The translations under genes and the position numbers were made by a program. Under the pieces are notes generated by a model. The model was not told the DNA's origin. It made no database searches and worked only from the letters and a program-made list of their open reading frames with translations. DNA of 50,895 bases, taken from Oscillospiraceae bacterium (GTDB lineage: Bacteria > Bacillota > Clostridia > Oscillospirales > Oscillospiraceae). Of the stretch, positions 1 to 1,656 are shown one piece after another; the stretch's first letter is position 1, and every line of letters starts with the position of its first letter. The DNA lies in contig SVLH01000011.1 of NCBI GenBank assembly GCA_015068025.1, forward strand, positions 1 to 50,895. The letters run 5' to 3'.

Positions 1-124
1 AATTTCAAACTTTTATCCTACAATTATATGCAATCTATACACATATTCCCTATAATATGAAACTTCTTTGCTGTAGTGGTTCGTGATAATAGGGATCATA
101 ACACTTCTATCTTGTATTCCTAAG
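1..124. other. AT-rich non-coding stretch, possible end of an integrated element
   Basis: About 30% G+C by direct count (36 of the first 120 bases) against 37 of 60 in the next line. The change is abrupt near position 124, exactly where the spoIIIAC reading frame stops matching its family. I see no convincing open frame, ribosome binding site or terminator in it. A TATAAT at 51-56 on the plus strand lacks a good -35 partner. Context suggests the end of a mobile or sporulation-intervening element whose body lies to the left of the window. Assembly chimerism is the main alternative. Confidence 0.55.
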
Positions 125-241
125 TCCTGCCAAAGTGGTCATCATGGCCTGCTCCTCCCGGCCGCTGCGCACCAGCAGTTGGTTGAGTACCGACACCAGG
201 ATCCCGATGGCTGCAATTTTAAAAATCAGATCAACATCCAT
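107..241 (-). pseudogene. spoIIIAC: Stage III sporulation protein AC, 3'-interrupted (N-terminal 40 codons intact)
   Basis: The minus-strand frame starts with ATG at 241-239 and encodes MDVDLIFKIAAIGILVSVLN, then a loop with RSGREEQAMMTTLAGL. This is the strongly conserved first helix and loop of SpoIIIAC, a small membrane protein of about 65 residues in the SpoIIIA-SpoIIQ channel between mother cell and forespore. After residue 40 (Leu, codon 124-122) only four unrelated residues follow before TAG at 109-107, so the second transmembrane helix is missing. The break coincides with the switch to AT-rich DNA. It lies directly downstream of spoIIIAB, as in the normal spoIIIAA-AH order; spoIIIAD and later genes are not in the window. 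Either the gene is rebuilt by excision of an element during sporulation or it is truly broken. Confidence 0.85.
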
Positions 242-250
242 GTTTTTTCC

Positions 251-748
251 TCAAATCAACAGGATCACCAGCAGAGCTGCTCCGGAAAGGCATAAGGCCG
301 AAACCCTTTGCCCATCTGCCCGAACGTTCCTGTCCATTTCTTCTGCCTCCCTTGAAAGGCACAGCATGACAAGTGAAATCGCATTACAGATTTGTTCCTC
401 ATCTCCACGCAGATCTCCCCCCAGTCTTGCCAGCGAAGCGCCGGTTTCCCGGGAGAGCGGCAGGGACTGCGCGGCCCGCTTCCACGCATCCGACAGCTGC
501 TCCCCCTTTGCAGATGCCTTTGCGGCGGCAGAAAACAGCCCAGCCGCATCCTCCCCGCAGTCCCCGCCCAACCGTTCCAGAAGTGCGGGCAGCGGGGTTC
601 TGGTACAGCGGATCTCCTCGCACATCCGCCGCAGTGCACACAGAAGATCGGACAGCGTGTCCCTCCGCCGACGTCGCTGGGTCATCTGCTGCCATCGCGC
701 AAGAAATCCGCCTGCCAGAATACAAAGACATCCCGTCAGCTTCAGCAT
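251..748 (-). CDS. spoIIIAB: Stage III sporulation protein AB
   Basis: The product has 165 residues, close to the usual 170 or so of SpoIIIAB. This membrane protein, made in the mother cell, belongs to the SpoIIIA complex and its soluble part resembles GspF of type II secretion systems. An N-terminal hydrophobic segment (residues 2-17) and a C-terminal hydrophobic segment (about 150-165) bracket a helical soluble domain rich in Arg, Glu and Leu, which is the expected layout. It overlaps the end of spoIIIAA by 7 bases and is followed nine bases later by spoIIIAC, so it is co-transcribed with both. The role is assigned from family architecture plus operon position; no catalytic motif is expected. 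Confidence 0.9.
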   Translation of the reverse strand: MLKLTGCLCILAGGFLARWQQMTQRRRRRDTLSDLLCALRRMCEEIRCTRTPLPALLERLGGDCGEDAAGLFSAAAKASAKGEQLSDAWKRAAQSLPLSRETGASLARLGGDLRGDEEQICNAISLVMLCLSREAEEMDRNVRADGQRVSALCLSGAALLVILLI

Positions 749-1656
749 GGCAGCTCCTCGATCTCGTAACTTCTCCCTTCCGCTGTCGGGGCGATCCGGA
801 CGATCCGGCGAAATACCTGCTCCTCCAGCAGTTTGCGATACAGCGGTTTTCTCTGCATATCCTCCAGATCCGCTGCGTGTACCGTCGCCAGAAGGCCAAC
901 GCCGCAGCCGGCAGCCATGGACAGCGCTTTCAGATCCTCCGCAGCTGTAATCTCATCCACGGCAATGATCTGCGGATTCATAGCCCGCAGCACCATGGGG
1001 ATCCCGATGGCTTTCGGACAGGCATCCAGCACATCGGTATGGGGGCCAACATCCATCTGCGGCTCTCCCCGATAGCAGACCGCCACCTCGCCCCGCTCGT
1101 CGATCAGTGAGATCCTCTGAGGAGCGTATGTTCCCCCCCCTGTCGACAGCGCCCGCACCAGATCCCGCAGCAGCGTGGTTTTACCGCCGCCCGGCGGCGA
1201 AAGGATAAGCGTACTGACAAAGATTCCGCCGGAAAACAACCGCTCCGCCAGAGAATCCGCGATTCCCTTATGCTCCCTTGCGATACGGATCACCGCGGAG
1301 GAAAAATTCTTCAAATTGGTGTTCATTCCCTCTTTCATCACAGCCGTTCCGCACAGTCCCACACGAAAACCGCCCTGTACCGGAACAAAGCCCTCCCGCA
1401 GCGTTTCCACCGCGGCATAACGCGAAAATTCCGTAGCCAGATCGCACAGCGTTTCCAGTTCCTCCGGCTCCACGGTGACGCTCAAGGGCAATTCTCCCCG
1501 CGGCAGCAGTACCGTCATCTCCCTCCCGCACCGCAAGCGAAATTCCTCTGCCTCCACCTGTTGTTCCTCCGACAGCGCCATGGCTGCCTTGCGAAGCCTG
1601 AACGGAAGTACCGCTGCCGCAGCCTCATACCGCACGATTCGAAAATCCTTTTCCAA
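742..1656 (-). CDS. spoIIIAA: Stage III sporulation protein AA, ATPase
   Basis: The product is a 304-residue secretion-type ATPase thought to drive the SpoIIIA-SpoIIQ channel that feeds the engulfed forespore. Residues 154-161 (PPGGGKTT) form the Walker A loop, IIAVDEI at about 230-236 forms Walker B, and LATVHA further on is a conserved sensor-like segment of this GspE/PilT-related family. The best start is TTG at 1656, because AGGGAGGG lies a short distance upstream and the first residues match the family length. It is the first gene of the spoIIIA operon here and overlaps spoIIIAB by 7 bases. A sigma-E-like promoter lies at 1687-1716, in keeping with mother-cell expression. Confidence 0.95.
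   Translation of the reverse strand: MEKDFRIVRYEAAAAVLPFRLRKAAMALSEEQQVEAEEFRLRCGREMTVLLPRGELPLSVTVEPEELETLCDLATEFSRYAAVETLREGFVPVQGGFRVGLCGTAVMKEGMNTNLKNFSSAVIRIAREHKGIADSLAERLFSGGIFVSTLILSPPGGGKTTLLRDLVRALSTGGGTYAPQRISLIDERGEVAVCYRGEPQMDVGPHTDVLDACPKAIGIPMVLRAMNPQIIAVDEITAAEDLKALSMAAGCGVGLLATVHAADLEDMQRKPLYRKLLEEQVFRRIVRIAPTAEGRSYEIEELPC

Follow-up and report, generated by a model that had tools for sequence, protein, structure and literature searches.

spoIIIAC as a probable insertion site of mobile elements with large serine integrases in Oscillospiraceae

What interrupts spoIIIAC in an operon whose other frames are open? The question was raised by a stretch of DNA of 50,895 nucleotides (the window), which forms the start of contig C9 in a metagenome-assembled genome (MAG) of an Oscillospiraceae bacterium (G000; 1.54 Mb, 39 contigs, 71.3% complete). 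Its minus strand carries spoIIIAA, spoIIIAB and codons 1-38 of spoIIIAC, after which the DNA becomes AT-rich, the G+C content being 29.6% over positions 1-125 against 59.1% over 128-1656 (Table 1). The original prediction, made from these letters, was that the end of an AT-rich mobile element, perhaps one excised during sporulation, cuts spoIIIAC after codon 40.

The split gene and its carriers

The frame, the fall in G+C and the other half of the gene, located on contig C14, bore out that spoIIIAC is broken by an AT-rich element end, while the exact point was found to be the first two bases of Gly codon 39 (counted from the ATG). The frame reads MDVDLIFKIAAIGILVSVLNQLLVRSGREEQAMMTTLAGL and then RNTR* (44-aa ORF, 107-241), and the residues G-L are still encoded past the crossover because the element by chance supplies A-CTT. 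As had been anticipated, the missing codons were found on another contig followed by spoIIIAD. The start of C14 consists of a 122-base element end, the shared bases GCAGG, and then the codons AGLVVVLMILVQEISDLFQLIKYLFDF and a stop, so that here, as on C9, a stretch of 127 bases closes with GG; downstream lies spoIIIAD (PF06686 match) and then further open frames, which from their order we take to be spoIIIAE-AH. Joining the C9 and C14 flanks in silico gave an open, intact SpoIIIAC of 64 aa. A PF06686 profile search of G000 returned four matches, the two spoIIIAC halves and two stretches of spoIIIAD, and no intact spoIIIAC elsewhere in this 71.3% complete MAG. The body of the element was not found in G000, whose sole PF07508 match lies on C21; the end of that contig was read, and the match was not linked to the element ends.

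Table 1. Features at the start of the window
Feature	Position	Strand	Basis
Element left end, AT-rich	1..125		Equal to G101:C6:1-125; present in G021; diverged in G008; homologous to An858 left end
Crossover dinucleotide GG (CC on +), spoIIIAC codon 39 bases 1-2	126..127	-	Identity with G101 spans 1-127 and stops there; same GG ends the first 127 bases of C14
Half attP2 and centre, forming attL with the spoIIIAC side	105..127	-	Letters equal the right half of the intact attP2 of An858
Natural integrase C-terminal tail as predicted for the circle, 37 codons and stop	13..126	-	Frame and stop common to An858; 5 synonymous / 0 nonsynonymous
spoIIIAC codons 1-38	128..241	-	PF06686 match, ORF; completed by G000:C14:128-205
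spoIIIAB, 165 aa, intact	251..748	-	Open ORF; name from original prediction and gene order
spoIIIAA, 304 aa, intact	742..1656	-	Open ORF; name from original prediction and gene order

When the joined ends were used to search 86 genomes of the genus, element ends at the same spoIIIAC codon were found in four of them, namely G000 and G101, G021 and G008, which represent three species besides that of G000; a fifth genome, G014, was dropped as its match covered only 24 bases. Both ends were present in G021, on two contigs, and the left end alone was found in G101 and G008. Window positions 1-127 are identical to G101:C6:1-127 and differ from base 128, where the genes of the other species start. 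Such an identical end in two species suggests that the element may have moved between them recently, and we infer that the contigs would break where this 127-base stretch is common to two species in one assembly. The first two bases of codon 39 were GG in 27/27 parsed full-length spoIIIAC loci of the genus (30 fetched, 3 unparsed). A pattern scan of GTDB genomes, which insertions with diverged ends would escape, yielded four records: three MAG contigs (apparently G101:C6, G021:C79 and G008:C64) and the isolate Pseudoflavonifractor phocaeensis An858. Among 400 sampled genomes of the family the element ends occurred in two, G000 itself and An858. The same codon is thus struck in G000, G101, G021, G008 and An858. 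Two pattern scans of viral contigs (IMG/VR) gave no match to the element ends.

A complete relative in Pseudoflavonifractor phocaeensis An858

A single contig of An858 (G124:C40) contains both halves of spoIIIAC, separated by 126 kb, and no full-length copy was matched; the halves enclose an element of 126,386 bp with 47.7% G+C between flanks of 63.4%. The flanks joined in silico gave an uninterrupted SpoIIIAC frame whose residue 39 is Ala, so that in both G000 and An858 removal of the element restored the reading frame exactly in such joins. The two-base crossover common to attL and attR would be GG in G000 and GC in An858, judging from the aligned ends. At the right end of the element a large serine integrase frame of 622 aa runs into attR; it carries an N-terminal PF00239 resolvase domain and a PF07508 recombinase domain, both over cut-off, and a weak zinc-ribbon match below cut-off. 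The recombinase that had been predicted beside the junction was accordingly present in the An858 element, and none could be tied to the ends in G000. Comparison of this integrase with phage and with plasmid records (E <= 1e-60) produced a single distant match in each set (38.1% and 39.6% identity), and of four pattern matches in an IMG/VR integrase scan none encoded a relative. A second, distantly related serine recombinase (37% identical over 248 aa) was noticed near the left end, at L080:5228-7129; the two small proteins encoded after it have no Pfam match.

Thus the claim of a mobile-element end in spoIIIAC held: the other half of the gene and the second end were located, further species have an insertion at the same place, and a complete relative bears a large serine integrase. 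As to the kind of element, the original prediction had named an integrative conjugative element (ICE) and a phage as alternatives. Conjugation genes were indeed found in An858: a CD1115-family type IV coupling protein (NF045973, 385.6 bits against a cut-off of 250, over a 557-aa part of the ORF) and part of a VirB4-like ATPase, in which a 257-aa ORF shows a C-terminal VirB4 match below the NCBIfam cut-offs and a PF19044 match over cut-off. Helicases, a methylase, a SpaA-type surface protein and RNA-repair genes are encoded as well. PF03432, the relaxase family searched, had no match on contig G124:C40, and because of this the element is described as conjugation-gene-bearing and is not filed as an ICE. 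Pfam scans of 70 ORFs (two of them partial) out of the 133 predicted showed no capsid, portal, terminase or tail gene, PHROGs scans of 10 ORFs showed no phage structural gene either, and the prophage reading was dropped for want of a structural gene among these ORFs.

Taken together, we consider it probable that spoIIIAC is split at codon 39 by an integrated mobile element of which a complete relative sits in An858. From its domains and position, the right-end integrase would likely catalyse both insertion and excision, and excision would rebuild spoIIIAC exactly. This would add spoIIIAC, a gene of the SpoIIIA channel operon, to the insertion sites known so far.

Two attP-like sites inside the integrase gene

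Comparison of the ends disclosed two attP-like sites side by side, 22 bp apart, with the centre GC in attP1 and GG in attP2. The site attP2 is intact at the An858 left end, where it has the near-symmetric form TTCTATCTTCTTACCTAAGCA GG ACTTAGGAATACAAGATAGAA, and is the one used by G000 and G021; attP1 is intact at the right ends of G000 and G021, reads TTCTATCTTCTTGTCTCC(C/T)GA GC ACTGGTCGCAACAAGATAGAA, and is the one used by An858. The symmetry is 14/21 for attP1, equalled in 1 of 20,000 shuffles, and 12/21 for attP2, equalled in 91 of 20,000. The centre used agreed with the host codon throughout: GG with Gly codons in G000, G101, G021 and G008, and GC with GCT (Ala) in An858, the GC/Ala pairing being one insertion at the DNA level. 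An integrase from the homologue search described below, P0001 (96% identical to that of An858), is the natural counterpart of the An858 case, since, judged from its protein sequence, attP1 is kept and attP2 used. Both versions of the codon occur in nature: of the 120 SpoIIIAC proteins listed as nearest to that of An858, a sample that leans to its Ala query, 64 have Gly and 48 have Ala at residue 39, while the remaining 8 have another residue or were misparsed.

Serine integrases require that the centres of the two att sites match. Work on this need is cited in PMC3783163. The integrase would pair the attP whose centre fits the host codon, attP2 (GG) with Gly codons (GGN) and attP1 (GC) with Ala codons (GCN), and the twin attP-like sites likely allow landing in either natural version of codon 39. 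If this is true, the two centres would be a natural answer to the matching-centre limit of serine integrases, and the choice of site would follow the host codon. Tandem attP-like sites with different centres look new; in the titles and opening lines of abstracts covered by our literature search no natural tandem attP was recognised.

Both sites fall inside the integrase frame, at its 3' end. Across the joined ends of An858 this frame passes through attP1 and attP2 and stops after residue 676, while in the integrated state it ends after residue 622, in spoIIIAC sequence. With both sites inside the 3' end, integration would swap out the C-terminal tail, and this arrangement, in which an integrase has attP-like sites within its own coding end and its tail would be replaced upon integration, also looks new. 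For the predicted tail beyond attP2, G000 and An858 show 5 synonymous changes (stop codon counted) and 0 nonsynonymous ones; G000 against G021 gave 1 synonymous and 2 nonsynonymous, a weak codon pattern, and in the divergent G008 the frame is open for 36 codons with differences of 19/11/15 by codon position, without codon bias. A hairpin follows the tail stop in An858 (z = -7.4) and G008 (z = -3.6), and a consensus scan for a terminator there in An858 gave 0. The full-length tail was found in no database protein, the tail-region search returning two matches, both of integrated forms. Integration would change the integrase from a predicted 676 aa in the circle to 622 aa in An858 and so mark the state of the enzyme, and the form of the tail may bias it towards integration before insertion and towards excision after. 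A tail rewritten at each integration would, if true, be a direct handle on direction control in serine integration.

The homologues point to a clade of integrases that would target spoIIIAC. Of 8,000 candidates scored, 4,104 matched the integrase at E <= 1e-100, and the best 120 (P0001-P0120) were listed. Their C-termini were compared with a strict read-through of GGN CTN GTN GTN GTN, a pattern that demands an xG centre by construction. Among P0001-P0020, 14 tails fitted, four fitted in part and two did not (P0013, a fragment, and P0011, which deviates), as against 0/100 among P0021-P0120; because the strict pattern decodes to GLVVV by construction, the evidence lies in these frequencies (14/20 against 0/100). 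In a quick tree of 61 rows (P0001-P0060 less P0013, and the two An858 recombinases) the spoIIIAC-type integrases were split from the remaining rows by a branch with a support of 93, and the clade appears to have kept the spoIIIAC site across 47-100% identity. In the order sample of 394 genomes, 13 had an integrase match at E <= 1e-120 and only An858 itself exceeded 43% identity; together with the 2/400 family genomes that show the ends, this means that the clade is known mainly from metagenome proteins. We put forward tentatively, as a reading short of even likelihood, that these integrases are specialised on spoIIIAC, that the tandem GC/GG attP sites fit Ala and Gly codons and would widen the host range without a change of enzyme, and that each integration would rewrite the tail, signalling integration and preparing excision, possibly in the mother cell.

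Operon condition and competing explanations

The spoIIIA frames are open on both sides of the element. As had been predicted, spoIIIAA and spoIIIAB are intact, and the differences between G000 and G021 fell mostly on third codon positions: by codon position they were 22/11/76 in spoIIIAA, 28/10/45 in spoIIIAB, 2/1/14 in the 5' part of spoIIIAC, 12/8/44 in spoIIIAD, 34/16/106 in spoIIIAE and 16/9/39 in spoIIIAG, and the excess was least clear in spoIIIAF (33/13/35). Sigma-G of Bacillus subtilis depends for its activity on the eight proteins that the spoIIIA operon encodes (PMC2703783). The integrated element should block SpoIIIAC and leave spoIIIAD and all later genes without access to the operon promoter upstream, and carriers would therefore sporulate only after excision. 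The sigma-E-like promoter of the original prediction was not recovered: a relaxed, crude pattern matched nothing upstream of spoIIIAA in the window or in An858, and its two matches within the An858 element were not near the integrase.

As an alternative, an element of this kind might be developmentally excised in the manner of skin, its integrase acting with a directionality factor in the mother cell and rebuilding spoIIIAC there only, so that the germ line keeps the element. The insertion in a sporulation gene that is exactly restorable in silico, the open flanking spoIIIA genes, most of them with a third-position excess between two carriers, and the precedent of a non-phage element with three serine recombinases that does so in gerE (PMC5595907, as far as the text available goes) are consistent with it; on the other hand, no mother-cell promoter pattern was seen near the integrase or the adjoining small ORFs, with a crude pattern that was equally blank before spoIIIAA, and a recent insertion would leave the operon intact in any case. 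On balance we regard mother-cell excision as rather unlikely. A selfish integrative element, which takes a conserved sporulation codon as landing site, turns off sporulation of the host and excises rarely for transfer, comes close to an even prospect. The conjugation genes of the An858 relative, the identical end in two species and the rarity in the family sample (2/400) all point that way, but such an element would remove the transmission form of its host, and a site apparently kept by the clade across 47-100% identity favours a more tolerable arrangement.

Another doubt concerns attP1, which might be a functionless duplicate or decayed version of attP2, used by accident in An858. The single DNA-level case of its use would suit this, as would the count of 0/20 tails of the An858 type among the nearest homologues, where the strict pattern demands an xG centre and two tails are unjudgeable. 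Yet attP1 is the more symmetric site, the codon hit in An858 encodes Ala, which a GC centre demands, and by eye many homologues, to as low as about 47% identity, retain an upstream repeat, with three repeats in P0002; we therefore think it unlikely that attP1 is a relic. That the junction near position 124 is a contig-end artefact or a chimeric assembly, as the start of a contig in a metagenome assembly might suggest, is practically dismissed by the same junction in other species and by the isolate An858, which holds the whole element in one contig, and the break would be accounted for by the 127-base stretch common to another species. The preferred reading remains an integrated element that splits spoIIIAC at codon 39.

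Several known systems resemble it in part. In the accessible portions of PMC4191935, PMC10747680 and PMC5025042, skin in sigK, SP-beta in spsM, gin in gerE and yin in yabG likewise split a sporulation gene, which exact excision by a serine recombinase restores; the present element differs in its target spoIIIAC, its 126 kb, its conjugation genes, its two attP-like sites and the attP inside the integrase gene, and is known here from sequence alone. The literature on such elements, in the portions covered, named no insertion in spoIIIAC, and the sole co-occurrence of spoIIIAC and integrase concerned resistance in Alicyclobacillus. With the large serine integrases of A118, Bxb1 and phiC31 the An858 enzyme shares resolvase and recombinase domains and a weak, below-cut-off zinc-ribbon match, and with A118 a near-symmetric attP with a 2-bp centre (PMC3783163, accessible part), whereas here two tandem attP-like sites with different centres lie inside the integrase coding end. 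Archaeal suicidal (SSV-type) tyrosine integrases also have an att site within the integrase gene that is altered by integration, and the part of PMC8371274 available states recombinases disrupting their own gene to be restricted to archaea; in contrast, the present case has serine recombinase domains, belongs to a bacterium and would exchange the C-terminal tail alone. In the integration-dependent immunity of mycobacteriophage BPs the attP likewise lies within a gene and the free and integrated forms differ in the C-terminus of the protein (PMC4557955, accessible part), but it is the repressor that is altered there and the integrase here.

Some further features of the clade and the element may be noted. 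The C-terminal tail of P0002 contains three repeats of the attachment-site motif, as seen by eye. A 163-aa gene adjoins attL in An858 (L080:3133-3621, minus strand) and has a counterpart at the G008 end (right end of L017; 60% identical over 62 aa); it is possibly, as a guess, an accessory or directionality protein. The An858 element also carries a gene with sigma-70 region 2 and region 4 domains (L082:510-1106), a surface protein of 1,981 aa with a thioester domain and 15 SpaA-type stretches (L081:4773-10715), and an RNA-repair-like cluster (L085:1736-5369) of an RtcB ligase, RlaP and a gene of the poly(A) polymerase/CCA-adding type.
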